64,000 nucleotides of DNA from Anabaena lutea FACHB-196 (GTDB taxonomy: Bacteria; Cyanobacteriota; Cyanobacteriia; Cyanobacteriales; Nostocaceae). The position numbers and the translations under genes are program-made. The notes under the pieces are model-generated. The model was not told the DNA's origin and did not search any database. It saw only the letters and a program-made list of their open reading frames with translations. The first letter of the stretch is position 1. Every line of letters begins with the position of its first letter. Location of the stretch: the NCBI RefSeq assembly GCF_014698305.1, contig NZ_JACJST010000001.1, positions 62,001 to 126,000 of the forward strand. Reading direction: 5' to 3'. Positions 4,016 to 56,530 of this stretch are shown one piece after another.

Positions 4016-4080
4016 TATTTTTAGGACACTGGAAACTTCAATTTATGGGTTTACCTTAAATCTTGAGACAGTCCCAAAAA

Positions 4081-4197
4081 CCGCCTGAGAATAAATTCTC
4101 AGGCTAATAACAAAAGTCGTCTAAAGACGACTAGAAAATTTTATGAGTCGGTTTTAACCGACTTGAGCTATTAGCCTTGAAATTCATTTCTAGGTGG
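4081..4197. repeat. 117-bp palindromic MITE-like element
   Basis: The element carries imperfect 28-bp terminal inverted repeats, starting CCGCCTGAGAAT and ending ATTTCTAGGTGG, with 20 of 28 positions complementary. Inside are three hairpins: CCTGAGAAT/ATTCTCAGG, AGTCGTC/GACGACT and AAGTCGG/CCGACTT. No transposase is encoded. It lies upstream of the DUF1016 gene and covers a spurious TTG start at 4177, which argues for the ATG at 4240 as the gene start. Confidence 0.65.
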
Positions 4198-4239
4198 TTG
4201 CAGAAGCTAATGCAAAGATTCGGAAATATTTATAACATC

Positions 4240-5259: not shown

Positions 5260-5262
5260 ATC

Positions 5263-5679
5263 ATGGATATCAATGATCTAATTGCGACTAAAGCAAATTT
5301 AATCACAAAATATTACAAGACCTTAGAAAAATTTACTTCTATTAGTCTTGATGAATTTCTCTCTGATTATTGTCAACAACTGCTGGCAGAAAGACTATTG
5401 TATTTAATTACTCAAACAGCAATAGACATTAATCAGCAAATAATATCAAAAATAAATCCTGAAAATAGTTCTACCACCTTAGAATCATTTACTCAACTTG
5501 CTAAATATCAAGTCATTACACGAGATTTATCTCAATCATTAACACCATCAACAGGACTCATAAAACATCTAACTTATGAATATGACAATATAAATCCAAA
5601 TCAAGTTTTTAAAGCAATTAATGTTGCTTTAGAAAAATATCCAATTTACATTAGACAAATCAAATCTTATTTAATCTGA
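5263..5679 (+). CDS. HepT-like (DUF86) protein with degenerate active site
   Basis: A 138-residue helical protein whose C-terminal part matches the HepT/DUF86 family of RNase toxins, normally paired with MntA nucleotidyltransferases. The segment TPSTGLIKHLTYEYDNIN aligns with the family motif GFRNxLVHxYD. The catalytic Arg is replaced by Ile100 and the His by Tyr105; only Tyr107 remains. No MntA-like gene is adjacent. It begins 3 bp after the DUF1016 gene and ends 13 bp before cas10d. It may be an inactivated toxin or an adaptor; loss of RNase activity is an inference from the missing residues. Confidence 0.6.
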   Translation: MDINDLIATKANLITKYYKTLEKFTSISLDEFLSDYCQQLLAERLLYLITQTAIDINQQIISKINPENSSTTLESFTQLAKYQVITRDLSQSLTPSTGLIKHLTYEYDNINPNQVFKAINVALEKYPIYIRQIKSYLI

Positions 5680-5692
5680 CTGGAAAAAGGCA

Positions 5693-8600
5693 ATGGCTAA
5701 AAAAAGTAAAGATACAAATGAACATCAACAACTATCACTTTTAGAAATAGAGAATAATTCAAATTCTGAAACCTCAGATGATGATTGGTTATCGGGTGAT
5801 TTTGGTTTTGATAGTGATGGTGATAGAACTATTGAAGCCAAAGGACAATTACTCACACTCAAGCTATTAAGAGAAGCAATTTCCGCACAAAATCCCAACG
5901 ATCAAGTAATGGCAGATTTTGGAGAATATGTCTTACCAAATCTGCTAAAAATAGCTATTGGTGTCACTGCGAAAGGTGGTAAATTCTTTGATGAAATAGA
6001 CGAAAAACGAGCAACAGAAGGAAAAACCAAAGTTAGACGTGATAATGCTGCTGATCAATCTTTAAATACTCACTTGCTTAATGGATTATTTCCAGCTAAT
6101 TTAATTGAGCAAAGATTAGAAAAACTGGATACTACAGTTAAACGAGTCGTCAAAGATAAAGAACGACGTTTAGTAATCGCTGGGTTTATTTTACATGACT
6201 TTGAAAAATTCCCAGATGCACCTGAAGACTGTCGCAAACTACCTTTAGATGAACATAAAAAAATCATTGATGAAAAAATTCAACAATTAGGACTTGATAA
6301 ATTTATCAATCCAGAAAATCCCGAAGTTTATCACGAATATATTGATGATTTATTGTGTATGGCTTATAATGCACAAATTCGCTGGGATACTAACTGGAAC
6401 TTCTCGGAATTTGGGTTAAATCCTGTTCTGAAAGATCGCACTATTCGCAGTTTATGTGATTTAACTCGTTTAGCTGATTTACTTTCTTCAATTATCAAAC
6501 ATCCTCAAGATGCAGAAAATAGGGCATTAAATGAAATTCTCCATAGTCTCAGTGATGGTAAATTAAAATTCACCTATCATCACATTTCCGAAAATAGAGG
6601 TGTTTTAACCAACGTTGTTAATAATGCTGTAATTGAAGCTCACACTAACTTAAATACTGAAGAAAATAGATATTATCAACCTTTGTTATATCTACCAACA
6701 GGGGTAATTTATCTAGCGTTGCGTGATGCTCCTCCTATCTCTCCAGAAACATTACCAGATTTGGTAGTTAATAAGATTAAATCCCTTTGTGCAGGTCAAT
6801 TAAAACTGAGACAAACGGGATTTGGTAGAGATGGAAAAGGGATGAAATATGCTGAATATTACAACCTATTTTTCGAGTCTCTAGGTTTAATGCAAGTTGC
6901 GTTAGATGCTACTTTACGCATTCTCAATACTAATAAAGCATCTGTTGCTAAAAGTCGCAGTGAAAATTTAGTTAAGTTCCAAAAACAGAATGTTTTATCT
7001 GCTGATTATGATTTTAACTTTGATGATAGTATTCGCATTGATCAAATTGCCGAATTTGGAGATTTAATTACTCGCAAAATTTGGGAAGAAACCGTTGATA
7101 AAATTGAAACCGCACGCAAGAAAGATAAAAAACTTCCACAAGTTCCAGATTTTGATTTAACTCACAAAGTTGCTGAATTTTGGAATTTAACAGAATATTT
7201 ACCCCAGGTTCGAGAAATTCAACGCATTAATGAAAGTTTGAAAGAACAGAAACTCAAAGGTAATACAGGAGGTGTACCTTATGAATGGTATTATCTAGCG
7301 GCTAAATATCTGGAAAAACATCCAGGTATTGAAGATGTCCGCGAAAATTGTCAACAAGTAATTTATTATTTGACAGATTTAATTTCTCCAATTCTGGCAC
7401 ATTATCAATTACCTGATGGTTGGGATGATTTAAGATTGTGGGTATCAAGAGTTGTGATGTTACCTACTACCAAGCAAGAAACATCTGCAACAAGTGAAGT
7501 TGATAATTTTCTCAATGAATTAACTAACTACAATACGGCTAAAAAACCAGGAAGAGGTAAACAATTAATTTGCTCAATTTCTCATTCTGCATACACTGTA
7601 ACTGAGCAAATGGAATCAGCAGTTTTATTTACCCCTCAAGTTTATACAAATAAACAAATGTTAGGAGGTTCTAACGCTAAACGCAACATTTCCAGTATTG
7701 CGGGGGTGGAAATGATGCTCAGACAAATATTGATGAATCAAACTCAAGCTGTAGGTAAAAGATTTGAAGATGGTAAATATCGCTATCTCTATTTTTACCC
7801 AACTTATTACTTCACACCAGAAACTAATAAGTTTTTACAAAAAGCCTACACAAATATTGCTCAAACTCGGTTTGACACGAGCATTCGTAATCATTTCATC
7901 AGTAAAGATTTACAAGTTGATTTAGGTAAAGAAAATTATCAAAGTGTAGATAGTTTCTTAATTGATGAAAATTTAGATAGTGAAAAAGACCGCACATTTA
8001 AACTTTCCTATCCTGAAGATCAACCGTTAACTTTTTACTTTATGGCTTTACCACCAGGAAGAGACAGCACTGATACCGAATCGTGGGTAATGCCGAGTTG
8101 GTTAGCGTTTGCTTTCCCAATGATTTTAGATGTCAAAACTGTAGTTTCTGAGTCTCCTATTCCTCCATTTAATGATGGTGCAGAATTTGAAGAAACCGTA
8201 TTTCTTGATAGTGCGCCTCATGCTTTTCGGACTTTGGTAAAAAGAGATAGATTTCGACTTGATTATATTCTTGAAGGTTGGGAAGAGTACGGTATTCAAT
8301 ATCCTGCACCTTTAAATGTTTTAACTGCTGCTTATGCTATTCATTTAGATGTGAATGCTAGACAAGGTAAGACTGGTTATGATGCTAACTGGGGGAAATT
8401 TACAGAGTTAGCTAAGGATTTTGAAACCAGTCCTCTTTATGTCTTTGCTTATCTCAATAAATGGGTGCGTAACCAAGGAGTGGAAACAGCCAGAATTGAA
8501 AAAATCAAACTTTACACCTATCATTTTTACCCTTGTTTTGACCCTTATGCAAAATTTGATTCTACTAAGGAGAAATTAATTGTGAGAGAAATATCAACCT

Positions 8601-9043
8601 TGAATCATCCTAAAAAATTAACGGAATTATATCGCCGTTTTTATCGGGCAAATAAAAGGTTTAATCCTAAAGCTAATGCTGTTTTAAAACCCATTGATAT
8701 TGCTGCGGATATTATTCTCAAAGCAGATTTATGTATGTTTGGTGGAGAAGTGTTAACTTCAGCCGTAGCGGCAGAGATTTTTAAACTCATGGATCGGGTA
8801 CATTCTTCTACTGCGGAAGGACGCTGGATTATAAATAAAAGGGAGGAAGAAAGACAAGCAGTTTTAGAGTTTGCAAACTATTTTGTAGTGGATGTTTTTG
8901 AGGGTTGTTTTAAGAGCGATCGCGCACGTTTAGCAGGTCGTCAATTAAACCTGATTCGAGATACCTGTGAATTTCTTTATCGCTTAGAAGATGACAAAGA
9001 AAATGCAGAAAAAACTAAATCTGAAGGTGATGAAAATGAATAA
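5693..9043 (+). CDS. cas10d: Type I-D large subunit Cas10d (Csc3) with HD nuclease
   Basis: The 1116-residue large subunit of the type I-D effector, which combines a Cas10-like body with the HD nuclease that cuts target DNA. The HD region is visible at about residues 120-175: H127 in NTHLLNG and the H168-D169 pair in FILHDFEKF. No GGDD cyclase motif was seen in the palm region, as expected for Cas10d. Length and position before csc2-csc1 fit the family. It begins 13 bp after the HepT-like gene, so its transcription may depend on the DUF1016/HepT-like pair upstream. The C-terminus is charged and lysine/glutamate-rich. Confidence 0.92.
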   Translation: MAKKSKDTNEHQQLSLLEIENNSNSETSDDDWLSGDFGFDSDGDRTIEAKGQLLTLKLLREAISAQNPNDQVMADFGEYVLPNLLKIAIGVTAKGGKFFDEIDEKRATEGKTKVRRDNAADQSLNTHLLNGLFPANLIEQRLEKLDTTVKRVVKDKERRLVIAGFILHDFEKFPDAPEDCRKLPLDEHKKIIDEKIQQLGLDKFINPENPEVYHEYIDDLLCMAYNAQIRWDTNWNFSEFGLNPVLKDRTIRSLCDLTRLADLLSSIIKHPQDAENRALNEILHSLSDGKLKFTYHHISENRGVLTNVVNNAVIEAHTNLNTEENRYYQPLLYLPTGVIYLALRDAPPISPETLPDLVVNKIKSLCAGQLKLRQTGFGRDGKGMKYAEYYNLFFESLGLMQVALDATLRILNTNKASVAKSRSENLVKFQKQNVLSADYDFNFDDSIRIDQIAEFGDLITRKIWEETVDKIETARKKDKKLPQVPDFDLTHKVAEFWNLTEYLPQVREIQRINESLKEQKLKGNTGGVPYEWYYLAAKYLEKHPGIEDVRENCQQVIYYLTDLISPILAHYQLPDGWDDLRLWVSRVVMLPTTKQETSATSEVDNFLNELTNYNTAKKPGRGKQLICSISHSAYTVTEQMESAVLFTPQVYTNKQMLGGSNAKRNISSIAGVEMMLRQILMNQTQAVGKRFEDGKYRYLYFYPTYYFTPETNKFLQKAYTNIAQTRFDTSIRNHFISKDLQVDLGKENYQSVDSFLIDENLDSEKDRTFKLSYPEDQPLTFYFMALPPGRDSTDTESWVMPSWLAFAFPMILDVKTVVSESPIPPFNDGAEFEETVFLDSAPHAFRTLVKRDRFRLDYILEGWEEYGIQYPAPLNVLTAAYAIHLDVNARQGKTGYDANWGKFTELAKDFETSPLYVFAYLNKWVRNQGVETARIEKIKLYTYHFYPCFDPYAKFDSTKEKLIVREISTLNHPKKLTELYRRFYRANKRFNPKANAVLKPIDIAADIILKADLCMFGGEVLTSAVAAEIFKLMDRVHSSTAEGRWIINKREEERQAVLEFANYFVVDVFEGCFKSDRARLAGRQLNLIRDTCEFLYRLEDDKENAEKTKSEGDENE

Positions 9044-9067
9044 TCAAACTGCGTCTCATCTCGTTGC

Positions 9068-9180
9068 TCTCGTTCCCAGTCTCTGACTGGGAATGCCTAA
9101 ACAGAGTCTCTGACTCTACCTTATTTCACAGAAGGCAGAGCCTTCAAGAATCCATTCCCATACAGAGTATGGGAACGAGA
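9068..9180. repeat. 113-bp MITE-like element (TCTCGTTCCCA family)
   Basis: The element is bounded by an 11-bp inverted repeat, TCTCGTTCCCA at 9068-9078 and TGGGAACGAGA at 9170-9180. Sub-terminal hairpins (CCCAGTC..GACTGGG) are also present. Related left halves occur at 12597-12641 and 24861-24912. It separates cas10d from csc2 and could form a strong RNA hairpin within the operon transcript. Confidence 0.7.
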
Positions 9181-9230
9181 AAATAACGAGAAAGTTACTA
9201 CATCAAACAACCTAATTTCAGAGAAAAATC

Positions 9231-10241
9231 ATGGCACTCTTAAAAACTGTTGATGCTAAATTATTTCAATCTCAAATTCCCTACAAACCAATGGGAAAAT
9301 ATGTCCATTTCCTCACCATTCGCGTTACCGAATCTTATCCGTTATTCCAAACAGATAGCGAACTAAACAAAGCAAGGGTAAGGGCTGGAGTCAAAGACAA
9401 AAACACCATTAGCCGTCTTTCCATGTTCAAGCGTAAACAATCAACACCAGAAAGATTAGTTGGTAGAGAATTATTACGCAAATACGAATTTATGACAGCA
9501 GAAGAATGTGAATATAACGTATCTTTTGCAATGGATAATCCTGATTGTATTATTTACGGTTTTGCTATTGGAGACTCTGGTTCTGAAAAATCAAAAGTTG
9601 TTGTAGATACTGCATTTTCTATTACAGCTTTTGATGAATCTCATGAAACCTTTACCCTCAATGCACCCTATGAAAATGGAACAATGGCTTCTAAAGGTGA
9701 AGATGGTTCTAAACCAGGTGAAGTTACTAGCAGAATTAACCAACAAGACCACATCAGACCACAGGTTTTCTTCCCTAGTATTGTCACCTTAAAAGATCCC
9801 ACAGAAGCTAATTTCCTTTATGTTTTTAATAACATCCTGAGAACTCGTCACTATGGCGCACAAACAACTCGCACAGGTAGAATTAGAAATGAGTTAATTG
9901 GTGTTGTATTTGCTGATGGAGAAATTACCAGTAACCTGCGTTGGACTCAAGCAATATATGATCAAATGAAGGCTAATAATACCCTCAAATCACCAGATCC
10001 TTTAGATGAAGATGATGTAATTGCTGCTGCGAAAAGTGCAATTGAGAATTTAATGGCTGATGAGTTTATTGTGCATACAGACTTTATTGGTGATGTTTTT
10101 GTACCCCTGTTGAATGAAGTTAAATCCCTCACAAATAACGAGGTTGGAATTAAATCAATTTTGCAAAAAGCTGACGCAGAAGCTAAAGAGTATGCTAGTA
10201 AACATATCAGCAAAAAGAAAACTGCTGCTAAGGCTAAATAA
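9231..10241 (+). CDS. csc2: Type I-D backbone protein Csc2 (Cas7d)
   Basis: 336 residues, the usual Csc2 length. Cas7-family proteins polymerise along the crRNA to form the Cascade backbone. The sequence contains the family's basic RNA-contacting stretch around RHYGAQTTRTGRIRN (about 205-220) and a lysine-rich C-terminal tail. The ATG follows a 187-bp intergenic gap occupied mainly by a MITE-like element. The stop is 5 bp before csc1, the only tight junction among the core cas genes, so Csc2 and Csc1 are likely translated together. Confidence 0.92.
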   Translation: MALLKTVDAKLFQSQIPYKPMGKYVHFLTIRVTESYPLFQTDSELNKARVRAGVKDKNTISRLSMFKRKQSTPERLVGRELLRKYEFMTAEECEYNVSFAMDNPDCIIYGFAIGDSGSEKSKVVVDTAFSITAFDESHETFTLNAPYENGTMASKGEDGSKPGEVTSRINQQDHIRPQVFFPSIVTLKDPTEANFLYVFNNILRTRHYGAQTTRTGRIRNELIGVVFADGEITSNLRWTQAIYDQMKANNTLKSPDPLDEDDVIAAAKSAIENLMADEFIVHTDFIGDVFVPLLNEVKSLTNNEVGIKSILQKADAEAKEYASKHISKKKTAAKAK

Positions 10242-10246
10242 CAGCC

Positions 10247-10954
10247 ATGACTATTATCTACCGTTGTCAATTAGAACTACACGACAGCCTATATTTTGCC
10301 ACCCGTGAAATTGGCAGACTATACGAAACAGAGCCAATAATTCATAATTATGCCCTCTGTTACGCACTTGGTTTAGTTGATAGTTCTATCTACTCAACAA
10401 CCGTTGCTGAAGAACATTCCTATCGCTATTTCTGCCCCGAACAAGTGCCAAAATATGAAGCACATTTAACTCCTTTAAATCAACAAGGAATCTATATAAC
10501 TCCGGCTCGTTCTGTAAATCATGCTGCTATTCTCAATACATGGAAGTATGCAAATAATAACTACCATGTAGAAATGGAGAAAACCCAAAAGAATATTCCT
10601 AGTTTTGGACGAGCAAAAGAAATTGCACCGGAAAGTCAATTTGAGTTTTTTCTAATTGCTCAAAAAGACATCAAATTACCTAAATGGATTCGTTTAGGTA
10701 AATGGATGAGTAAAGCAGAAATTACAGTTGAAAAACTACCACAACCAAAAACCAAAACTGATTTATTCACCTGTACTCATCCTTTAAATCCATTAGATGT
10801 CATGTTTACTAATCAAGTCATTAGCTATGATGTGGTAAATATGCCTCCAGTTAGCCTCATTCAAAATGTGCAAATGCAAGGGGAATATTATGTTTTTGAT
10901 GATATCAAAAATGTAAAACTTCCCAAACAAATGCAATACAGATTTAAGGCTTAA
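10247..10954 (+). CDS. csc1: Type I-D Cas5-like protein Csc1
   Basis: A 235-residue RAMP-fold protein of the Csc1/Cas5d family. It caps the 5' handle of the crRNA and contacts the large subunit. The start MTIIYRCQLELHDSLYFATR is the first strand of the RRM-like fold, and the order csc3-csc2-csc1 is diagnostic for type I-D. The start codon lies 5 bp after the csc2 stop. A C-rich/G-rich hairpin follows the stop before cas6. Confidence 0.9.
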   Translation: MTIIYRCQLELHDSLYFATREIGRLYETEPIIHNYALCYALGLVDSSIYSTTVAEEHSYRYFCPEQVPKYEAHLTPLNQQGIYITPARSVNHAAILNTWKYANNNYHVEMEKTQKNIPSFGRAKEIAPESQFEFFLIAQKDIKLPKWIRLGKWMSKAEITVEKLPQPKTKTDLFTCTHPLNPLDVMFTNQVISYDVVNMPPVSLIQNVQMQGEYYVFDDIKNVKLPKQMQYRFKA

Positions 10955-10964
10955 AATTTTAGAT

Positions 10965-10990
10965 CCCCCCAACCCCCTTAAAAAGGGGGG
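10965..10990. terminator. G/C-run hairpin between csc1 and cas6
   Basis: A run of six C, then AACCCCCTTAAAAA, then six G can form a stem. It lacks a clear U tract, so it may be a dispersed hairpin repeat or attenuator rather than a full terminator; cas6 begins 28 bp later. Confidence 0.45.
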
Positions 10991-11017
10991 CTTTGAAAAA
11001 TTCCTCATCATTAATCT

Positions 11018-11839
11018 ATGCCCCATAGTCTCATCCTCAACATCATCCCCCAATCTCCTATCTACCCCAATTTCCTCACTGGCAGACATTACCACGCCTT
11101 ATTCCTGAATCTGGTGAGTTCTGTGGATAGAAAATTAGGAGATTACCTCCACGAATCAAACGCCGATAAAGCCTTTACTCTCTCACCATTACAGATACAA
11201 AGCAAACATAAAATTCAATCTCTCATCTTGCAATATGCCCATCAAAATCCTATTTCCGCAGGTACTTGTTGTTGGTGGCGAATATCTTTATTAGATGACA
11301 ATTTATTTAGTCAACTCACACCTTTATGGTTGAATCTTAACCCGGAACATCCTTGGCATTTGGGTTCAGCTAATTTATTTATTACCAGCATTCAAGGTAC
11401 ACCCCAATCTACCCAACCTTGGGCTAATGTTTGCACATATCCCCAATTATATGAACAAGCAAGTGAGAAAGAACGGATAATTAATTTCATTTTTTCTACA
11501 CCTGTAGCCTTTCGTCAAGGTGGTTTTGATAACGTTTTACCAACAAGAGAATCTGTTTTTAATAGTTTGTTGAATCGGTGGAATAAATATAGTGGTATTG
11601 AATTAGCTGATATTTCTTTTGAGTCAGTTTATCCTAGTGCTTTCAATATCAGAACTGAGGTTATTAGCAACTATGAAAATAAATTCATTGGTTGTTTAGG
11701 TGAAATTAGTTATCGCATTCTTGGCAATGTGGAAACAATAGGAATTAAACAAATTAACGCATTAGCTAATTTTGCTTTATATGCAGGTATTGGGAGGAAA
11801 ACAACAATGGGTATGGGAATGGTGAGAAGAAAATTGTAG
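11018..11839 (+). CDS. cas6: CRISPR repeat endoribonuclease Cas6
   Basis: A 273-residue double-RRM endoribonuclease that cleaves the pre-crRNA within repeats to leave an 8-nt 5' handle. The family G-rich loop is at the C-terminus (GIGRKTTMGMGM, about 258-270). Candidate catalytic histidines lie in the N-terminal RRM (GRHYHALF near residue 23-30). The TAG stop overlaps the first bases of a 91-bp MITE, so the last few residues and the stop may be set by that insertion. Loci of this type usually encode one Cas6, and only one is seen here. Confidence 0.9.
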   Translation: MPHSLILNIIPQSPIYPNFLTGRHYHALFLNLVSSVDRKLGDYLHESNADKAFTLSPLQIQSKHKIQSLILQYAHQNPISAGTCCWWRISLLDDNLFSQLTPLWLNLNPEHPWHLGSANLFITSIQGTPQSTQPWANVCTYPQLYEQASEKERIINFIFSTPVAFRQGGFDNVLPTRESVFNSLLNRWNKYSGIELADISFESVYPSAFNIRTEVISNYENKFIGCLGEISYRILGNVETIGIKQINALANFALYAGIGRKTTMGMGMVRRKL

Positions 11840-11925
11840 GTTGGGTTGACGCAAGGAAACCCAACATCATCACATTATTAATCAATGTTTTTGTTGGGTT
11901 GCGCTGTCGCTTAACCCAACCTACA
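11835..11925. repeat. 91-bp MITE-like element (TGTAGGTTGGGTT family)
   Basis: The left end TGTAGGTTGGGTT is the reverse complement of the right end AACCCAACCTACA (13 bp perfect). Inner inverted copies AAACCCAACA/TGTTGGGTT are present. A shorter relative (CCCAACA..TGTTGGG) lies at 25698-25731. The TAG stop of cas6 lies inside the left terminus. No open frame is carried. Confidence 0.75.
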
Positions 11926-11971
11926 GATGAATTGTTTTTTATTGTCTTAAAAAGAGAATTGTGAATATTTT

Positions 11972-12580
11972 ATGCTGCCAACTGTCACCTCTGCTGATGA
12001 TTACGTTAATATCGCTTCTTTAAATCAATATTCTTATTGTCCTCATCGTTGTTGGCGGATTCATTGTGCTGGTGAATTCATTGATAATCAATACACTATT
12101 GAAGGCACAAGTTTACATGAACGAGTTCACGCTGTGGGGGAAGTAAATCGTGAGGAAACTTGGCAGATACGGGCAATTTATCTGAAGTCTGACCAATATC
12201 AACTGATTGGTAAATCTGATTTAATTGAATTTGAAAATGGCGAATTTTATCCAATTGAATATAAACGCGGACGTAAAGGAGAATGGGATAATGATGAGTT
12301 ACAAGTTTGCGCTCAGGCTTTGTGTTTGGAGGAAATGACTGGAAAAAATATCAATTCTGGTTATATCTATTATGCTCAAACACATCAACGTAAGTTAGTG
12401 GAAATTACGCCGGAATTACGAGCAAATACCATTGCAACTATTGAATCTGTGCAAATGATGTTGTTTACGGGTGCTATGCCAAAACCTGTGAAAACAAAAC
12501 GCTGCGATGGTTGTAGTCTTTATTCTCGATGTTTGCCTCAAGCTGTTGAGAAGGTTGGGCGTTATAAAGAGGTAAATTGA
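11972..12580 (+). CDS. cas4: Cas4 adaptation nuclease
   Basis: A 202-residue RecB-family exonuclease with an Fe-S cluster, which trims prespacers and selects PAM-proximal ends together with Cas1-Cas2. Cluster cysteines are C23 (in YCPHRC) and C178, C181 and C187 in the C-terminal CDGCSLYSRC motif. Nuclease residues D83 (GKSDLIE), E96 and K98 (IEYKRG) are intact. It sits directly upstream of cas1 and downstream of a MITE. Its start has AAAGAGAATTG upstream. All expected functional residues are present, so active adaptation is plausible. Confidence 0.93.
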   Translation: MLPTVTSADDYVNIASLNQYSYCPHRCWRIHCAGEFIDNQYTIEGTSLHERVHAVGEVNREETWQIRAIYLKSDQYQLIGKSDLIEFENGEFYPIEYKRGRKGEWDNDELQVCAQALCLEEMTGKNINSGYIYYAQTHQRKLVEITPELRANTIATIESVQMMLFTGAMPKPVKTKRCDGCSLYSRCLPQAVEKVGRYKEVN

Positions 12581-12596
12581 TTAGTTTTTAAGTGAG

Positions 12597-12641
12597 GCGG
12601 AGCCTTTTAGCTGCATTCCCAGCCGGAGTCTGGGAACGAGA
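12597..12641. repeat. Partial TCTCGTTCCCA-family repeat
   Basis: Reverse-oriented left half of the element at 9068-9180, including GGCGGAGCCTT and TGGGAACGAGA. It forms a CCCAG..CTGGG hairpin just upstream of cas1. Confidence 0.6.
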
Positions 12642-12666
12642 AATAACTACAAATTGAGGATTAATT

Positions 12667-13668
12667 ATGGGGACTCTTTACGTTACACAAAATGATTCTT
12701 TTATTGGTAAGGTTGATGAACGAATTCATGTGAAGTTTGAAAAGAAAACACTTCAGGATATCCCGTTCATTCATCTTAAAGATGTGGTGGTTTTGGGACG
12801 TGCAACTGTTTCACCTGCTGTTGTTTTTGAGTTAATGAATCGTCATATTCCGTTGTCTTTTATTGATGAAATGGGTCATTATTTGGGACGTTTAGAACCA
12901 GAAATGACTGGTAATATTTTCATTCGGAAGGCACAATGGCAAGCTGCGGGTGAGTCTCCCCAATCTATTCATGCGGTACAAGGTTTTGTGAGGGGGAAGT
13001 TGAAAAATTACCGTCAACTTTTGATGCGTTGTCAACGGGATTCTGATGTTGATTTGTCTAAATATATTACTCGCATTGAACAAACAATTGCTCCCATTGA
13101 TTCAACTCATAATATTAATTCTTTGCGTGGGTTGGAAGGTGCGGGGAGTGGAGCCTATTTTGGTTGTTTTAATCAGTTGATTCGTAACGCGGAATTTACT
13201 TTTACTAAGCGTGTGCGTCGTCCAGCAACAGATCCGGTAAACTCGTTATTGAGTTTTGGTTATTCTTTGTTGCGTCATGATTTGCAAGGGGCTGTGAATA
13301 TTGTGGGGTTTGATCCATATTTAGGATACTTGCATTTTGATCGCTATAATAGACCTTCTTTACCTCTAGATTTAATGGAGGAGTTTCGGCCTTTGGTGGT
13401 TGACTCGGTGGTTTTATCTATTTTGAATAACAAATTATTGACACCAGTGGATTTCGTTACTGAACCTTTAAGCAATGCTGTTTCCCTGACTCCCGAAGGA
13501 CGTAAAACCTTTTTGACACTGTACGAAAAGAAAAAGCAATCGGTGTTTAAACATCCGGTTATGAGTCGTAAATGTACTTATCGAGAAGCTTTTGAGTGGC
13601 AAGCTAGATTACTTGCTAAATACTTAATGGGTGAAACTGATAAGTATCCACCGTTGGTTTTGAAGTAG
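12667..13668 (+). CDS. cas1: Cas1 integrase
   Basis: The 333-residue metal-dependent integrase that, with Cas2, inserts new spacers at the leader end. Conserved active-site residues are visible: E157 in LRGLEGAG, H223 in GYLHFDRYNRP, and E238/E239 in LMEEFRP. The start has a GAGGA ribosome site 8 bases upstream. It follows cas4 and precedes cas2, the standard adaptation order. The protein is complete, consistent with the long array downstream. Confidence 0.96.
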   Translation: MGTLYVTQNDSFIGKVDERIHVKFEKKTLQDIPFIHLKDVVVLGRATVSPAVVFELMNRHIPLSFIDEMGHYLGRLEPEMTGNIFIRKAQWQAAGESPQSIHAVQGFVRGKLKNYRQLLMRCQRDSDVDLSKYITRIEQTIAPIDSTHNINSLRGLEGAGSGAYFGCFNQLIRNAEFTFTKRVRRPATDPVNSLLSFGYSLLRHDLQGAVNIVGFDPYLGYLHFDRYNRPSLPLDLMEEFRPLVVDSVVLSILNNKLLTPVDFVTEPLSNAVSLTPEGRKTFLTLYEKKKQSVFKHPVMSRKCTYREAFEWQARLLAKYLMGETDKYPPLVLK

Positions 13669-13687
13669 CTATTAGCAAGAAGAAAAA

Positions 13688-13718
13688 AGTAGGGGTTTAG
13701 CACTGCTAAACCCCTACT
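13688..13718. repeat. Perfect 31-nt palindrome between cas1 and cas2
   Basis: AGTAGGGGTTTAGCA and its exact reverse complement flank a single C. It would form a 15-bp hairpin in the mRNA, a possible attenuator or processing site between cas1 and cas2. Confidence 0.7.
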
Positions 13719-13747
13719 AATCCTAACTCCTGACTTCTAAATTATTT

Positions 13748-14020
13748 ATGAATGTTGTTGTTTCTTACGATATTTCTGAGGATAAACGCCGTACTAAAAT
13801 CCATAATATCCTCAAGTCTTATGGACAATGGGTGCAGTATAGTATTTTTGAATGTCAGTTGACTGAGACTCAGTATGCTAAACTGCGATCGCGCCTCAAT
13901 AAGCTGATTAAGCCGGATACTGATAGCATTCGCTTTTATTTCCTCTGTGCTTGCTGTTTTGGTAAGGTGGAACGAATTGGTGGTGAACAACCCCTCGATA
14001 CGACGATTTTCTTCGCTTAA
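13748..14020 (+). CDS. cas2: Cas2 adaptation protein
   Basis: A 90-residue ferredoxin-fold protein that dimerises as the scaffold of the Cas1-Cas2 integrase. It starts with the conserved strand MNVVVSYDISEDKRR, including Asp8, and has the typical length. The stop codon abuts the leader region: the leader's 11-bp inverted repeat begins at the next base. It is separated from cas1 by the 31-nt palindrome. Confidence 0.95.
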   Translation: MNVVVSYDISEDKRRTKIHNILKSYGQWVQYSIFECQLTETQYAKLRSRLNKLIKPDTDSIRFYFLCACCFGKVERIGGEQPLDTTIFFA

Positions 14021-14247
14021 TGCGCGAGGGGGTGGGTGTAAAAAATCCGGTTTCTCAAAAAACGCCTGAAACCATTTCTACATAAGGCTTTGCTCGCTTT
14101 TTTCTACCCCGACCCCTCGCGCACCTTACACAGTAAGGCTTTCAGCGTTTTTCACTCTTGACACGATTCCTGAAATGGACTATGATGAGAGCGCTCGCGC
14201 AAACGAACCTTGAAAACTACATATATATAGGCTTTCGGGCTGCCGCA
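14021..14247 (+). promoter_or_regulatory. CRISPR leader with consensus promoter
   Basis: A perfect sigma-70-type promoter is visible: TTGACA at 14158-14163, 17 bp, TATGAT at 14181-14186. Transcription would begin near 14193, about 55 nt before the first repeat. Upstream, an 11-bp inverted repeat TGCGCGAGGGG/CCCCTCGCGCA (14021-14031/14113-14123) can form a long stem and may terminate the cas transcript. AGGCTTT occurs three times (14085, 14136, 14229), the last 12 bp before repeat 1, and could be a leader motif for integration. Confidence 0.7.
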
Positions 14248-17200
14248 GTTGAAATTTCATTTACTCCCTATTAGGGATTGAAAGACTATATTGATGATGC
14301 CAAGAATAGGTGGGAAAGACGTTGAAATTTCATTTACTCCCTATTAGGGATTGAAAGTGCTTCTATATCCTACAGAAATTCCCCTAACGCCAGTTGAAAT
14401 TTCATTTACTCCCTATTAGGGATTGAAAGAGGATGCTGGCAACGCTCTTTTAAAAGCATTTGGCATCAAAGTTGAAATTTCATTTACTCCCTATTAGGGA
14501 TTGAAAGCAAAATCTCACCTACTATTCAAATACTTCTCCCATTTATCCAGTTGAAATTTCATTTACTCCCTATTAGGGATTGAAAGTACGAGTCTCCCAC
14601 GCCGGACATCAAATACTTTGAGGTTGAAATTTCATTTACTCCCTATTAGGGATTGAAAGGAGTTTTAAATCCAAACCAAATTCAGGATTATTCCGTTGAA
14701 ATTTCATTTACTCCCTATTAGGGATTGAAAGACATGAGGTTAATATGTTTCAGGCGTTTGACCCGCCATTGAAGTTGAAATTTCATTTACTCCCTATTAG
14801 GGATTGAAAGTTAGCCATGAATTTAGAACAGATAGGAGCGATCGCTTGTTGAAATTTCATTTACTCCCTATTAGGGATTGAAAGTACCCAATTCCTATTG
14901 ACTATATTAGAGATATTGGAGAAGGTTGAAATTTCATTTACTCCCTATTAGGGATTGAAAGATTAGCGATCGCCTCCAAAAACTTTAATAATTATACTTC
15001 AAGTTGAAATTTCATTTACTCCCTATTAGGGATTGAAAGTTTATCTAGACGCTCAATCTTGGGAGGAGCGTAAAAGAAGTTGAAATTTCATTTACTCCCT
15101 ATTAGGGATTGAAAGGATAAACTCTTCTTTTGTAATTTATAAATACTGTAGTTGAAATTTCATTTACTCCCTATTAGGGATTGAAAGACCGCCAATAGTG
15201 CGCCCAACGCGCAACTCAGAGTTGAAATTTCATTTACTCCCTATTAGGGATTGAAAGTTGCAATTGCTACCCGAAAATTTTCCAAAACGTTGAAATTTCA
15301 TTTACTCCCTATTAGGGATTGAAAGGATAGTGTAAGCTCTTACTGCACAACTCGCCCTGGTTGAAATTTCATTTACTCCCTATTAGGGATTGAAAGTGAA
15401 ACGCTTGATTGATCGCAAGAATAAGAAATTGGGAGTTGAAATTTCATTTACTCCCTATTAGGGATTGAAAGCGCTAAGAAATTTGATTTCAGAAGTGAGA
15501 GATTTACGTTGAAATTTCATTTACTCCCTATTAGGGATTGAAAGTCGCTATCAAAACCAGATGTATTCTGAATATTTACCGCAAGTTGAAATTTCATTTA
15601 CTCCCTATTAGGGATTGAAAGCCCGAAAACTTATGAGTACTCAATAAGCGATCGCCTGTTGAAATTTCATTTACTCCCTATTAGGGATTGAAAGTTTTCA
15701 CCTTTAAAATATGAAATTCTACCAGATTCGGCATAAGTTGAAATTTCATTTACTCCCTATTAGGGATTGAAAGTTAATGCCTTATTTTCTAACTAACTGT
15801 CTGTTAACGGTTGAAATTTCATTTACTCCCTATTAGGGATTGAAAGCTGGTAGAAAGCCGGGGTTTGGTAGGTATGGTAATGTTGAAATTTCATTTACTC
15901 CCTATTAGGGATTGAAAGACTTGGAAAAAGGGACTTTAGCTATTTGGCTCGCGTTGAAATTTCATTTACTCCCTATTAGGGATTGAAAGAGTACCTGCTA
16001 ACGGCTACAAGTCAGCAAAAGGAGTTGAAATTTCATTTACTCCCTATTAGGGATTGAAAGGAAAAAAGAGAGATGGATAGTAAAAATAACGTTAAGTTGA
16101 AATTTCATTTACTCCCTATTAGGGATTGAAAGGCTTTGGCTTCTTCGGTTGCAGACTTGTAATCCGCAGTTGAAATTTCATTTACTCCCTATTAGGGATT
16201 GAAAGTGCTGATGAAATAGAGCAAGGTTTGGATTACTTTGTAGTTGAAATTTCATTTACTCCCTATTAGGGATTGAAAGATAAGATTTCTTGGTTAATTC
16301 GCCAAACCTTTTAGTTGAAATTTCATTTACTCCCTATTAGGGATTGAAAGTAATTCGTTAAGACTTGCTTTATCAGTTGAATACTGTTGAAATTTCATTT
16401 ACTCCCTATTAGGGATTGAAAGGGAAAGCGATAGCAAGATGACTAAATCAGAGGCTGTAGGTTGAAATTTCATTTACTCCCTATTAGGGATTGAAAGTTG
16501 CATTTCTATTTTTTCCTCTTTCGAGTAATGGTTGAAATTTCATTTACTCCCTATTAGGGATTGAAAGTCTCTAGTATTTGTAATTCAGTATCTCCACCAA
16601 ATCCTGGTTGAAATTTCATTTACTCCCTATTAGGGATTGAAAGGTTTATTCTTTCATCAGGCGTTCCAGCGTCTAAAGTTGAAATTTCATTTACTCCCTA
16701 TTAGGGATTGAAAGGTCAGGCACGGATGCTGGTAAAGAGCCGACTCTTTTTAAGTTGAAATTTCATTTACTCCCTATTAGGGATTGAAAGAAATAATCGG
16801 CGTTTCAGTTAAGCACAGTGAAAGTTGAAATTTCATTTACTCCCTATTAGGGATTGAAAGCTTCCGAATCTAAATTTTTTGAGTATAGGGCAGAGTTGAA
16901 ATTTCATTTACTCCCTATTAGGGATTGAAACCAGCAAGGCATTAATAGACGCGTTGAACAAAAAGTTGAAATTTCATTTACTCCCTATTAGGGATTGAAA
17001 CCTAAAAGGCTTAGTTGCTTCTACTAATGGATGAGAAGTTGAAATTTCATTTACCCCCTATTAGGGATTGAAACGCAGTATCTTTCTCTTGCCCAATTAA
17101 AAACCAAGTTGAAATTTCATTTACTCCCTATTAGGGATTGAAACTAATTCCTGATCTGAGCGATCGCCCACCCATCCCGTTGAAATTTCATTTACTCCCT

Positions 17201-18963
17201 ATTAGGGATTGAAACGGACTGACCTTCTTTGATGCCATCCTTAACAGCTTGTTGAAATTTCATTTACTCCCTATTAGGGATTGAAACTGACGTTCGGCAC
17301 GACAAAGTATTGAGCGCAGGTTGAAATTTCATTTACTCCCTATTAGGGATTGAAACGCACGCTAACACTACAAGAATGGTAACTAAAGCATTAGAAGTTG
17401 AAATTTCATTTACTCCCTATTAGGGATTGAAACGTTTACCAAAACTTCAATAAATGAAAATTGTCCCGAATTGGTTGAAATTTCATTTACTCCCTATTAG
17501 GGATTGAAACATGACACATAACAACACTGCTATTGGAACTATTCGTTGAAATTTCATTTACTCCCTATTAGGGATTGAAACTAATTAATACAATTCTTAA
17601 TCCTAAAGTTAGACCTAGTTGAAATTTCATTTACTCCCTATTAGGGATTGAAACAGCTTCTTTTCTTGCTTGCTTAATACGATTAGCAAGTTGAAATTTC
17701 ATTTACTCCCTATTAGGGATTGAAACCCCGAAAACTTATGAGTACTCAATAAGCGATCGCCTGTTGAAATTTCATTTACTCCCTATTAGGGATTGAAACG
17801 GAATTTAAAAACGACCGCATTAATAGCGATCGCTTGTTGAAATTTCATTTACTCCCTATTAGGGATTGAAACTATGTAGGTGATGATTGTTGCATTAGAT
17901 GTACTATGTTGAAATTTCATTTACTCCCTATTAGGGATTGAAACGCTTATTTTCAGGAAGACGTGATAGCCACGGCATGTTGAAATTTCATTTACTCCCT
18001 ATTAGGGATTGAAACTATCTCTAAACGTATAACGATTTTGTATTACGTTTTGTTGAAATTTCATTTACTCCCTATTAGGGATTGAAACTTTTTGGATATT
18101 GATATCCACTATTTCATCAAGAGGAAAGTTGAAATTTCATTTACTCCCTATTAGGGATTGAAACAGTAATCGATGATTTATCTCGTTGGCTATTCATCTG
18201 TGAAGTTGAAATTTCATTTACTCCCTATTAGGGATTGAAACCAGCCATGTCAGTACTTAATAGTTAGATTATCTAATTAGTTGAAATTTCATTTACTCCC
18301 TATTAGGGATTGAAACGGGAATAAATAAATTATTCCAGAAATAAATTAAAGTTGAAATTTCATTTACTCCCTATTAGGGATTGAAACTGCTGAAGTTAGA
18401 TTTTGACTAAATCGCTAAACCCTAGTTGAAATTTCATTTACTCCCTATTAGGGATTGAAACCAAGAATCTGGAAACGATTCCGAAATCTCGGAAAATGAG
18501 GTTGAAATTTCATTTACTCCCTATTAGGGATTGAAACGACGATATCATCGATGAAGCTTGGGATGACTTCTACTCCTGTTGAAATTTCATTTACTCCCTA
18601 TTAGGGATTGAAACAGTGATTCTCTCGCGGCATAAGAATCCTGAATGGTTGAAATTTCATTTACTCCCTATTAGGGATTGAAACGTAAGTCCTTGGTCGT
18701 ATGTGAATACAGCCAAGTGTTGAAATTTCATTTACTCCCTATTAGGGATTGAAACTATGCATCCGCTCTAGCTCTAATTTTCGACCTTCTTGTTGAAATT
18801 TCATTTACTCCCTATTAGGGATTGAAACCTTTTCTGTAAAATTACTGGAAAGGGAGATGTGGCATCTTCAGTTGAAATTTCATTTACTCCCTATTAGGGA
18901 TTGAAACCTCACCTTCCCTATCTTCAGAATTTTCATACCAAGCAATGTTGAAATTTTATTCTG
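14248..18963 (+). CRISPR. Type I-D CRISPR array, 64 full repeats plus decayed end
   Basis: A 37-nt repeat (begins GTTGAAATTTC, ends GGGATTGAAAG or GGGATTGAAAC) with spacers of 31-42 nt. I count 64 full repeats: numbers 1-36 (14248-16860) end in G and numbers 37-64 (16895-18907) end in C. Repeat 39 (17038-17074) has one internal T-to-C change. A degenerate 65th repeat starts at 18947 (GTTGAAATTTTATT) and marks the leader-distal end. The spacer at 15622-15657 is repeated exactly at 17727-17762. Six spacers contain the HIP1 octamer GCGATCGC. Array orientation follows from the leader promoter, the adjacent cas2 and the decayed far end. Confidence 0.98.
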
Positions 18964-53334: not shown

Positions 53335-53817
53335 ATGATTATTCTTTTAATGGGCGTTTCTGGTTCTGGTAAAACTAGCATTGGGAAACTTTTAGCAGAA
53401 TCACTAAATTGGGAATTTAGCGACGCTGATACATTTCACCCACCAGCTAACATCGAAAAAATGCAGGGTGGTATTCCCCTCAATGATGCTGATAGAATGC
53501 CTTGGTTAGAAGATTTACAAGCTGCTATCAAAAATTGGCAACAAGAAAATAAAAATGTAGTTTTGGCTTGTTCTGCCCTTAAAGCTAGTTATCGCCAAAT
53601 GCTGATAATTGATAATCGTGTTCAGCTAGTTTATCTGAAAGGTGCATTTGATGTGATTGAAAAACGGCTAAAAACGCGACAAAATCACTTTATGACCGAA
53701 AAGCTCCTCAAAAGCCAGTTTTATGACCTTGAAGAGCCAAATAATTGTATCTGCGTTGATGTTTCTGAATCGCCTGAAGTGATTGTAGAGAAGATTAGAA
53801 AAGCTTTAGGAATTTAG
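53335..53817 (+). CDS. gntK: Gluconokinase
   Basis: A 160-residue kinase that phosphorylates gluconate to 6-phosphogluconate. The P-loop GVSGSGKT is at 7-14, the family segment DADTFHPPANIEKMQGGIPL follows, then NDADRMPWL and VLACSALKASYR. It lies 51 bp before the HipA-like kinase gene, so co-transcription is possible. Confidence 0.93.
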   Translation: MIILLMGVSGSGKTSIGKLLAESLNWEFSDADTFHPPANIEKMQGGIPLNDADRMPWLEDLQAAIKNWQQENKNVVLACSALKASYRQMLIIDNRVQLVYLKGAFDVIEKRLKTRQNHFMTEKLLKSQFYDLEEPNNCICVDVSESPEVIVEKIRKALGI

Positions 53818-53868: not shown

Positions 53869-54780
53869 ATGTCAGATCTGTTTCCAATCATTGAAGTTCC
53901 CCTAGATGCTTCTCAGGATATTGAGGATTTGGGAACACGAATAAAGTTCTGGTTCTATGACGATAACCTTAGTCGTTGTCTCTTTAAGAAAGCTAGACCA
54001 AATACTGGAGAGGATTGGGCAGAAAAAATTGCTACTGAATTGTGCAAATTACTGGGACTACCCCATGCTGAACAGGAATTAGCTATATACAGGGGAGAAA
54101 AAGGTACTGTTTCACCCTCATTTTTACGAGGAGAATGGAAAAACGGTACTCTCATTACTGGTAGGGAAATTCTCGCTCAAAAATTACCTGACTATCCACA
54201 ACATCCAAAAGATCATTCCCAACACACAATTAATAATGTATTCAGTACCATTGAAGCTACTTCGCTTAACTTACCGATAGAATGGATACCACCAGAAGGA
54301 ATTAATACTGCAATTGATACTTTTGTCGGATACTTGCTGTTAGATGCGTGGATAGGTAATACTGATCGACACCATGAAAACTGGGCATTTATCAGTGTTA
54401 AAGATAGAATTTACTTATCACCAACTTATGATCATGGTTCTAGTCTTGGTAGAAACGAGCCTGACTCCAAACGACAACAAAGATTAACCACAAAAGATAA
54501 GGCTTTTGCTGTTGAATCCTATGCCCAAAAATGCTATTCTGTTTTTTATACCCAAGTTGGTAATACACACCGCCTCAGAAACTTTGATGTTTTTTGTGAA
54601 GTAAAAAAACTTTATCCCAATGCTGCAAAAATTTGGCTTGATAGATTGGCAGAAATTAGCAGTAATGATACTTTAAAAATTATTATGCGTATTCCCAAAC
54701 ATCGAATATCCATACCAGCAATAGAATTTGCTCACAAAATACTTGAATTAAATCAAAAGGAACTGCTAAATTTACAGTGA
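53869..54780 (+). CDS. HipA-like kinase core (HipT-type)
   Basis: A 303-residue protein with the HipA C-terminal kinase fold. A possible ATP lysine is K40/K41 (CLFKKARPNTGEDW). The catalytic region GNTDRHHENW has D166 and N171, and the metal-binding motif SPTYDHGSS has D188. The N-terminal subdomain found in full-length HipA is missing. A similar segment occurs instead at the start of the next gene, as in HipBST systems where HipS and HipT are split. There is no HipB-like DNA-binding gene nearby. HipT kinases phosphorylate tRNA-synthetase targets; whether this one does is unknown. Confidence 0.78.
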   Translation: MSDLFPIIEVPLDASQDIEDLGTRIKFWFYDDNLSRCLFKKARPNTGEDWAEKIATELCKLLGLPHAEQELAIYRGEKGTVSPSFLRGEWKNGTLITGREILAQKLPDYPQHPKDHSQHTINNVFSTIEATSLNLPIEWIPPEGINTAIDTFVGYLLLDAWIGNTDRHHENWAFISVKDRIYLSPTYDHGSSLGRNEPDSKRQQRLTTKDKAFAVESYAQKCYSVFYTQVGNTHRLRNFDVFCEVKKLYPNAAKIWLDRLAEISSNDTLKIIMRIPKHRISIPAIEFAHKILELNQKELLNLQ

Positions 54781-54791
54781 ATTTTTTATCT

Positions 54792-55556
54792 ATGAAAACT
54801 CTTTTCTTAGCTTGGCAAGATCCAACAACTCGTGCTTGGTTCCCTGTCGGGAGATTAACATTTGATGGTGAAAAATATACTTTTGTATACACCCAAGGAG
54901 CTAGACAAGCACAAGATAAATGTGATTTCAACCTAGTATATTCGTTCCCAGATTTGCACAGGGTTTATAAATCAACTGAATTATTCCCATTGTTTTATAA
55001 CCGAGTGATGCAAACTTCTCGACCAGACTATAAAGATTGTATTCAATGGCTGAATATACCTGAAAACGAAGATGATCCAATTGCTATTCTTTCGCGTTCT
55101 GGAGGACGTAAGGTAACAGATCATTATGAAGTTTTCCCTTGTCCAGAACCTGATGAAAATGGTTTATACAAAATTCATTTTTTTGCTCATGGTTTGCGAC
55201 ATTTTCCCCCATCTGCAACCGAAAGAATTCATCAATTACAAACCCAAGAAGTTTTGTATTTAGCTAACGAATTTCAAAATCCCTATGACTCACGTGCATT
55301 GCTTTTATGTACAAAGGATCATCATATTGTTGGTTATTGTCCCCGCTATATTGTAGATGATGTTTTTAAACTAAACAACAAAAATTCAGAACTTCTAAAA
55401 GTATACGTTGAGCGCATCAACCCAGTACCAGCACCACTTCAGCTACGTTTATTATGTAGTTTAACCGCAGAATGGCGTGATGATTTTCGTCCATTTTCCA
55501 GTCAGGAATATCAACCAATAGTAGCTGATATCCCTGCTGAATATGTAACGATCTAA
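54792..55556 (+). CDS. HipS-like N-terminal domain fused to HIRAN domain
   Basis: About 254 residues. Residues 1-75 look like HipA N-subdomain 1/HipS (VGRLTFDGEKYTFVY, then YSFPDLHRVYKSTELFPLF). Residues about 115-215 match the HIRAN domain, which binds DNA 3' ends or stalled forks in other proteins (LYLANEFQNPYDSRALLL, IVGYCPRYIVDDVF). A GTG at 54777 would overlap the kinase stop (GTGA). The ATG at 54792 is the alternative used here. Likely an antitoxin or regulator of the upstream kinase; inferred from HipBST. It overlaps the PfkB gene tail by 4 bp. Confidence 0.72.
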   Translation: MKTLFLAWQDPTTRAWFPVGRLTFDGEKYTFVYTQGARQAQDKCDFNLVYSFPDLHRVYKSTELFPLFYNRVMQTSRPDYKDCIQWLNIPENEDDPIAILSRSGGRKVTDHYEVFPCPEPDENGLYKIHFFAHGLRHFPPSATERIHQLQTQEVLYLANEFQNPYDSRALLLCTKDHHIVGYCPRYIVDDVFKLNNKNSELLKVYVERINPVPAPLQLRLLCSLTAEWRDDFRPFSSQEYQPIVADIPAEYVTI

Positions 55557-56530
55557 AGTTGATGAGAAGCCAGAAAAGCATCAACTTCAGCCGCAGTGGG
55601 TTGGGATGCGATCGCACCAGGTTTAATAGTAGTTAGCGCCCCCACAGCACTAGCATAGGTGACAACTCGTTTTGCGGTTTCTCCATCCCGCAAATTTTGA
55701 ATTCCAGATATATGTAATTGATGGATAAACCCAGCTAAAAAGCTATCTCCCGCACCCGTAGTATCAACAACAGGTATAGAAAAAGCAGGTAATTTGCCTT
55801 CATTCTCACCTAAACAATAGGCGCAACCATTTTCACCATCTGTCACCAAAACTCCTTCCAGTGAATTCAAGCGATAAGTAATTGCTCCTGGGTCTGTAGT
55901 ATCAAATAACCATTCTGCTTCTTCTTTAGTCAGTTTGAGAAAATCAAATCTCTTTAATAATGCCTGAATTTTTGACTTGGCTGTATTTTCATCTTGCCAA
56001 AATACTGGTCGCCAATTCACATCAAGAATAATTTTCAGATCATATTGTTCGGCTAACTCTAAGGCTCGCAAAACAGCTTGCTCACTTTCAGGATAGGCTA
56101 GTTCTAAAGTTCCTAAAACCAAAAAGTCTGCTTCATCAAACAGCGAATGTGGTAATTGCTTGGCTACTAGACGGGTATCAGCAAATTCCGAAGTCTCATA
56201 TTCGCCAAATCCAGCAAAAGTGCGATCGCCTGCCAAATCCCTAGTAACATAAACTTGTCGCGTTGGTGCTATAGGATGACGTTGCACACCCGTCGTATCT
56301 ACACCGATATCCTGTAATAGCTTCACCAGATCATTACCTGCTTCATCCTCTCCTACTGCGCCAATAAACCCTGCTGGCGTTCCCAACTTCACCAAAGCAC
56401 AAGCGACATTAGCAGGCGCTCCCCCTGGGTAGGGAGTCCAAGACTGCACTTCTTCCAGCTTTAGCCCCATTTGATCAGCTAAACAATCAAACAAAACTTC
56501 GCCAAGGCACAAAACACGGGGATTACTCAT
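55553..56530 (-). CDS. PfkB-family carbohydrate kinase (fructokinase-like)
   Basis: A 325-residue ribokinase-fold kinase. N-terminal substrate signature PGGAPANVACALVKLG and C-terminal DTTGAGDSFLAGF (catalytic Asp in GAGD) are both present. The pattern is close to fructokinases. It ends tail to tail, overlapping the HIRAN gene by 4 bp. Together with gluconokinase it makes the second sugar kinase flanking the HipA/HIRAN pair. Confidence 0.9.
   Translation of the reverse strand: MSNPRVLCLGEVLFDCLADQMGLKLEEVQSWTPYPGGAPANVACALVKLGTPAGFIGAVGEDEAGNDLVKLLQDIGVDTTGVQRHPIAPTRQVYVTRDLAGDRTFAGFGEYETSEFADTRLVAKQLPHSLFDEADFLVLGTLELAYPESEQAVLRALELAEQYDLKIILDVNWRPVFWQDENTAKSKIQALLKRFDFLKLTKEEAEWLFDTTDPGAITYRLNSLEGVLVTDGENGCAYCLGENEGKLPAFSIPVVDTTGAGDSFLAGFIHQLHISGIQNLRDGETAKRVVTYASAVGALTTIKPGAIASQPTAAEVDAFLASHQL

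Follow-up and report, generated by a model that had tools for sequence, protein, structure and literature searches.

The stretch of DNA analysed here (hereafter the window, 64,000 nucleotides of Anabaena lutea FACHB-196) carries on its forward strand two overlapping genes that together form a compact module. The first, hipI (53869-54780, +), starts with ATG and encodes a short HipA/CtkA-type Ser/Thr kinase of 303 aa without N-subdomain-1, and the second, hipN (54777-55556, +), encodes a HipS-like and HIRAN protein of 259 aa from the GTG at 54777 or 254 aa from the ATG at 54792. With the GTG start, the beginning of hipN and the stop of hipI share a 4-bp GTGA overlap (54777-54780, +), suggesting that translation of the two genes may be coupled, while the alternative ATG lies 11 bp 3' of the hipI stop; these reading frames agree with the initial annotation, which had allowed for either layout. 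The HipS/HipA-N1-like domain of HipN spans 54792-55145 (+; model residues 1-118) and its HIRAN domain 55152-55511 (+; model residues 121-240). Two genes named by inspection anchor the site: a gluconokinase-like gene (gntK, 53335-53817, +), the left neighbour and outside the module, and a convergent pfkB-type sugar kinase gene ('frk', 55553-56530, -), the right neighbour, whose stop codon overlaps the end of hipN by 4 nt. A HipB-like gene directly upstream of hipI is ruled out, as only 51 bp separate hipI from gntK. Pfam recognizes HipA_C in the kinase (8.3e-08, 32.6 bits against a cut-off of 30.5) and HIRAN in residues 132-231 of HipN (3.4e-08), and the NCBIfam profiles gave no match above cut-off for either protein. 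The PADLOC profiles PDC-M03A (kinase, 1.4e-117) and PDC-M03B (partner, 1.9e-100) match far beyond chance.

By this anatomy the window pair is near certainly hipIN, one of the kinase families that Gerdes, Baerentsen and Brodersen defined by gene context in 2021 (PMC8262856). As set out in the available parts of that paper, hipIN comprises a kinase of 279-321 aa without N-subdomain-1, with the HipI subclades placed in main clade XI and a HipI subclade drawn from Proteobacteria and Cyanobacteria, and a HipS-like plus HIRAN partner, HipN, regarded as a putative antitoxin; phage DNA ends were proposed to activate the pair and so trigger abortive infection. The window has a 303-aa kinase without N1, the core kinase motifs, and a downstream gene for a HipS-like and HIRAN protein, and we found no anatomical difference from hipIN as those parts describe it, Cyanobacteria and the same phage and DNA-end hypothesis included. 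The initial annotation was therefore correct in its observation but mistaken in taking the arrangement for an undescribed system, since it corresponds both to hipIN (PMC8262856) and to PADLOC PDC-M03. The latter, which both window proteins match, is a database entry for which our literature search found no paper using the name; the same search, over open-licence literature and thus outside most subscription papers and preprints, returned no experiment on any hipIN. What is new here relative to the 2021 account is the support at the level of folds, the one-way loss of the kinase, a long-resident site in Nostocales, and locations in a P2 hotspot and in a type I restriction operon.

The HipI model and residue columns, both built from 58 aligned natural kinase sequences, indicate a kinase reduced to its catalytic core. 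The model (pLDDT 95.4) aligns with HipA over residues ~125-437 only, that is, without N-subdomain-1, and the catalytic residues are intact: K40, D166 and N171 occur in 58/58 sequences and D188 in 57/58, while in the Gly-rich loop region G22 is kept in 57/58 and the T23 column holds T in 47/58 and S in 6/58. Residues and model thus bear out the earlier reading of a HipA core with D166, N171 and D188 in place and no N-terminal subdomain. The best structural match is CtkA (3akk_A; Z 27.6, rmsd 2.5, 269 residues), with HipT(Lp) (8ezs_B, Z 19.3) well below it, and a profile search with HipI agrees with this ranking (CtkA 3.8e-15, HipT(Lp) 0.0079). CtkA (3akj, 3akk) is thus closest by structure and by profile, a likeness compared at the fold level. 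Because the closest solved kinase is CtkA rather than HipT, the way in which HipS binds HipT need not apply to HipI and HipN.

According to the models, the N1 subdomain that is missing from HipI is present as a predicted fold in HipN. The HipN model, which draws on 58 natural sequences and reaches a mean pLDDT of 93.1 and a pTM of 0.89, aligns over residues 1-118 with Legionella HipS (7vkb_B; Z 10.7, rmsd 2.1 over 100 of the chain's 102 residues), with HipS 8ezr_A (Z 10.5) and with HipA 2wiu_C (Z 9.6, range 2-184), and over residues 121-240 with the HIRAN folds of 3k2y_D (Z 12.8) and HLTF 5bnh_A (Z 9.3). The HipS likeness comes from this separate alignment of the model to solved structures and not from Foldseek, whose 50 listed matches covered the HIRAN half with low E-values but included no HipS. 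The fusion of a HipS-like and a HIRAN domain postulated from the sequence stands, its predicted HipS fold supported by the match to 7vkb_B (Z 10.7), and only the guessed length of the HipS-like part, 75 residues, fell short of the ~118 in the model.

The HIRAN half offers a partial view of a possible DNA-binding pocket through a weak profile match to HLTF (E 0.038). In that weak alignment (E 0.038), HLTF N91 corresponds to HipN N163, an N in 55/58 sequences, HLTF Y93 to Y165, with Y in 31, H in 12 and F in 9 of 58, and HLTF N90 to a position occupied by Q in 45/58; HLTF Y72 falls outside it. Available text on HLTF reports that the NN90,91AA mutant binds no DNA (PMC4666394), and the available parts of the 2021 paper note that most HIRAN domains of HipN are without HLTF Phe142 and may bind single strands (PMC8262856).

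In HipBST, as described in the accessible portions of two studies, bound HipS forces the HipT P-loop into an ATP-blocking state, and in the E. coli system Trp65 is wedged near the active site (PMC9325769, PMC10627512). Given that the first domain of HipN has the HipS fold in our model, the simplest reading would be a block of the same kind, and we consider it likely that HipN is an inhibitor of HipI. The two systems are alike in pairing a kinase core without N1 with a separate HipS-fold partner; however, HipBST runs in the order B-S-T with the HTH protein HipB upstream, whereas in the window the kinase precedes its partner, HipB is missing, the partner carries HIRAN, and the kinase fold is closer to CtkA than to HipT. 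An alternative is that HipN acts as a targeting subunit, its HIRAN domain directing HipI towards stalled forks or DNA ends so that repair or phage proteins there would be phosphorylated. HIRAN recruits HLTF to forks, according to the text available (PMC4666394), and the greater resemblance of the kinase to CtkA than to HipT would suit such a role, but the first domain of HipN adopts the HipS/HipA-N1 fold, which in HipBST belongs to the inhibitor, and we regard this alternative as unlikely.

The pairing of the two genes is almost without exception. A scan of genome contigs with the kinase alignment confirmed 470 relatives, of which the best 80 were used as loci; these are mostly cyanobacterial but include some assigned by title or label to Planctomycetota, Pseudomonadota, Myxococcota, Acidobacteriota and one Gracilibacteria MAG. 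HipN, counted as linked when its domain starts between -150 and +200 bp from the end of the kinase domain, lies directly downstream of the kinase in 79/80 of these best 80 of 470, and the exception, L131, is a contig that ends 2 bases after the kinase. Among viral-contig loci HipN is found at the same distance in 71/72, the exception being a weak false match (L261) to which the kinase profile lends no confirmation. With linkage of this order across several phyla and no point found in its favour, the idea that a HipA-like gene and a HIRAN gene stand side by side by accident is refuted and retains practically no probability; the co-occurrence on which the initial annotation had made its proposal depend is there in both sets (79/80 genome loci, best 80 of 470, and 71/72 viral loci). 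Of the 79 linked genome loci, three (L121, L137, L169) have a split kinase frame and two a broken HipN: L137 once more, and L139, whose kinase frame is intact and which comes from a low-coverage MAG contig. A start codon giving the exact 4-bp overlap is available in 52/78 genome loci and 33/72 viral loci (L189-L260).

Gene loss within the module runs in one direction. In a sample of 120 genomes of the order, HipN is present in 26/120 and the kinase in 20/120, and the 34 HipN places in these genomes divide into 27 with at least 44% identity and 7 distant ones (29-38%). The 27 close places comprise 13 with an intact kinase, 6 with none (L005, L007, L008, L015, L018, L022), 3 with a broken kinase (L010, L020, L030), 2 cut by a contig end (L009, L019) and 3 with a partial HipN (L026, L027, L031), while every intact kinase at or above 50% identity (13/13) has an adjoining HipN. 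The nine full-length HipN genes with a lost or broken kinase represent about eight events, L007 and L008 being near-copies. This asymmetry fits the pattern expected of a harmful kinase and a harmless inhibitor, stopping short of proof that HipI is toxic, and it fits an inhibitor better than a targeting subunit. At one of the partial places, a TnpB-like transposase gene, named by inspection, stands directly before a truncated hipN without a kinase (L027:247-1971).

The two proteins also differ in constraint. HipI evolves faster than HipN, with dN/dS of 0.27 versus 0.15 to L105 and 0.20 versus 0.11 to L067, and orphan HipN is under purifying selection at 0.13-0.16, all by a crude NG86 estimate in which dS is near or above 1 in several pairs and the L007/L008 pair gave no value. 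Such selection on orphans implies that HipN may act without HipI, and one could accordingly read orphan HipN as an independent or anti-addiction gene, protecting the cell from an incoming hipIN or serving a DNA role of its own, with the kinase dispensable. The six full-length HipN genes that lack a kinase and the three beside a broken one in 120 genomes, the six genomes of the former group having no intact close kinase listed elsewhere, agree with this idea, as do the purifying selection on the orphans (dN/dS 0.13-0.16, crude NG86) and the higher conservation of HipN, 77% identical to its counterpart in G035 where HipI is 63% identical. Yet these dN/dS values span the time both before and after kinase loss and so do not isolate selection after it, and 13/27 close HipN places still adjoin an intact kinase; as a general account of HipN we find the idea improbable.

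The window copy lies between the gluconokinase-like gene and the convergent sugar kinase gene, behind sfsA (names by inspection), and this site has a history. A gntK search in genomes of the family found 50 places in 49/60 genomes, and among 30 loci examined 4 hold the full module (the genome's own included), 2 hold HipN only, 1 retains a 33-residue kinase remnant, 7 show gntK and frk but lack the module between the two, and 16 have other surroundings. Among the best 80 of 470 genome loci, 20 lie near homologues of frk, gntK or sfsA; this 'frk site' call depends on a tblastn match within the flank (E at most 1e-20), with 10/20 also showing sfsA or gntK and the other 10/20 relying on frk, a sugar kinase that possibly has paralogues. 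In a quick kinase tree the site loci and the window fall into one set of 30 rows (99 SH-aLRT), except for Microcoleus L147, and this supported set also holds 10 rows from other sites. In Nostocales the module has thus probably occupied a single chromosomal site for a long time and been lost from it repeatedly. A second hipIN in the same genome, on contig C2, is 56% and 59% identical and belongs to another branch of the tree; its surroundings look mobile by inspection, the pair following directly upon an AAA-type ATPase gene with Fic-, RecD- and integrase-like genes near (L065:5570-8949).

A defence island around the window copy is rejected, its immediate neighbours being sugar-metabolism genes. 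The window does hold a type I-D CRISPR-Cas locus (1159-18960), which ends ~35 kb from hipIN and comprises Cas3d (1159-3363), Cas10d (5693-9040), Cas7d (9231-10238), Cas5d (10247-10951), Cas6d (11018-11836), Cas4 (11972-12577) and Cas1 (12667-13665), with a PDC-S02 match inside the region (4177-5256) and an array of ~64 copies of a 37-nt repeat (~14244-18960). Among the copies listed, the final repeat base switches from G to C at about 16.9 kb, and part of the array near 15.6 kb recurs at 17.7 kb with 99% identity.

Relatives of the pair are found in quite different settings. A P2-type portal gene lies on the same stretch in 34 viral-contig loci. In 31 of them it converges on hipN, with 41-57 bp between the end of the hipN frame and the portal gene, and there are 11 distinct kinase tails among these loci, one of them common to 16. 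For the remaining three the distance is 174 bp in L223 and 155 bp in L234 (partial), and L211 has a 34% match elsewhere. The region from gpA to the portal gene gpQ of P2-like phages is an anti-phage hotspot according to the available text of Rousset et al. 2022 (PMC9122126), whose main text contains neither 'HIRAN' nor 'HipA'. The module of L199 recurs at 99% identity or more in 21/5426 complete E. coli genomes, and when the query is extended into the portal and terminase genes 20/21 match the whole stretch, with SW071614 matching into the portal gene. The extended query matches 1255 E. coli genomes, and beyond the 21 the matches listed (60 of 1260 records) cover portal and terminase only, which suggests that the P2 site is usually filled otherwise. 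In two E. coli genomes examined, the pair has replication-endonuclease/DinI-like genes on one side and the portal gene on the other, and in one of the two a SIR2 and ATP-binding pair adjoins hipIN in the P2-like prophage region (L263:2527-7673).

Phages and plasmids of other hosts carry the pair as well. It lies beside an integrase in the two Vibrio phage records examined of four that matched, which carry a PM2-like capsid note, and beside an integrase in a Clostridioides phage. Of eight plasmid records that matched, five were examined: on one from Rhodococcus the pair is flanked by the S and M genes of a type I restriction system, on one from Nostoc it adjoins HmaC, and in Mycolicibacterium (L187) an IS110 gene separates HipN from a partial kinase frame. 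A PADLOC scan of neighbours started from 242 proteins of 100-1500 aa, drawn from 48 of the 60 loci that lie away from the frk site, the 12 shorter loci being excluded, and covered 227 proteins from 45 loci after 15 from L134, L136 and L138, near-copies of L133, were dropped. The families listed (25 per scan, of 143, 113 and 134) include pAgo, DrmMI, DruE, type I and IIG restriction and SoFic. The table counts families and not loci, and its control, 46 window proteins, itself holds the type I-D CRISPR-Cas locus, so we claim no enrichment of defence genes. The defence neighbourhood that the initial annotation proposed to look for is seen around some relatives, in defence-like contexts, but not around the window copy.

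Presence on plasmids and phage contigs is also what one would expect of plain toxin-antitoxin stabilization, in which HIRAN, like HipB, would bind the promoter of its own operon and autoregulate, with no sensing of DNA damage or phage; the narrow 51-bp gap between gntK and hipI, with no HipB gene directly upstream, points the same way. Yet the HIRAN of HLTF binds single strands and fork structures and no operator, as reported in the available text (PMC4666394), promoter-like sites near the pair show no excess (4, against a shuffle mean of 7.5), and the module has long resided at one Nostocales site, so we give this account little credence.

The explanation towards which we lean, with some reserve, is that HipI is a toxin locked by HipN and that binding of DNA ends by HIRAN frees it and thereby limits phage. 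HipI would be a minimal Ser/Thr kinase toxin and HipN its cognate inhibitor, made from the overlapping gene. The HipS-like domain would most likely occupy the HipA-N1/HipS position on HipI and hold its Gly-rich loop in an ATP-incompetent state, as in HipS-HipT, while HIRAN would replace HipB as the DNA-facing part and most likely bind single-stranded or 3' DNA ends. Abundant ends, from phage replication intermediates or collapsed forks, would then loosen or remove HipN from HipI, and free HipI would phosphorylate an essential host factor, probably in translation, stopping growth and limiting the phage. The predicted folds, the linkage of 79/80 (best 80 of 470) and 71/72 loci, the loss asymmetry, the P2, plasmid and phage contexts, the weakly matched HIRAN pocket, the HipS mechanism and the analogy with HipAD all speak for this explanation. 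Against it stand the place of the window copy between sugar-metabolism genes, the closer likeness to CtkA than to HipT, the Q at the HLTF N90 position in 45/58 and the H at Y93 in 12/58, the purifying selection on orphan HipN, and the broken HipN in 2/79 and split kinase in 3/79 loci.

HipAD (DS-6, PDC-M66) is instructive here: like hipIN it joins a HipA-type kinase to a partner other than HipB, and the available accounts report experimentally that it protects against phage, that protection needs the kinase and that deletion of the partner is toxic (PMC13092281, PMC12548924). Its partner, however, is DUF3037/DUF1829 and not HIRAN in those accounts, and it belongs to a different PADLOC family. 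DNA-triggered phage defence by hipIN we hold to be plausible, a little short of an even chance. More tentative, and rather doubtful as a whole, is the fuller idea that HipN is a DNA-end-gated lock whose HIRAN domain reads the 3' or single-stranded ends of phage DNA and unlocks HipI, with orphan HipN conferring immunity to incoming hipIN. If such a gated lock were real, it would represent a direct DNA-sensing trigger for abortive infection by a kinase, present both in host chromosomes and in P2-like prophages, and the copies in E. coli P2 prophages make the DNA-end hypothesis of 2021 (PMC8262856) directly testable.

Related domains are arranged in other ways elsewhere. HipA-HIRAN pairs occur beside diDNase genes in Gram-positive bacteria, according to the portion available of one report (PMC11706625), and HipL, as the 2021 paper describes it in its available parts (PMC8262856), has the same three domains in one chain where the window has two genes; no kinase-HipS-HIRAN fusion of the HipL type was flagged among the 80 genome and 72 viral loci. 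In L264 a HipI-like N-terminus of ~290 aa opens a 2139-aa frame (687-7103, -), for the rest of which Pfam gave no match at E 0.01, and just upstream lies a HipN-like gene (7103-7888, -) whose match to the PDC-M03B profiles is confined to roughly their first 145 positions. The order is reversed in L266 (1979-3648, -), L265 (1120-2827, -) and L029, where a distant HipN (~30% identical) precedes a distant HipI; these reversed pairs come from three genomes of one genus, one of which has two pairs in tandem.
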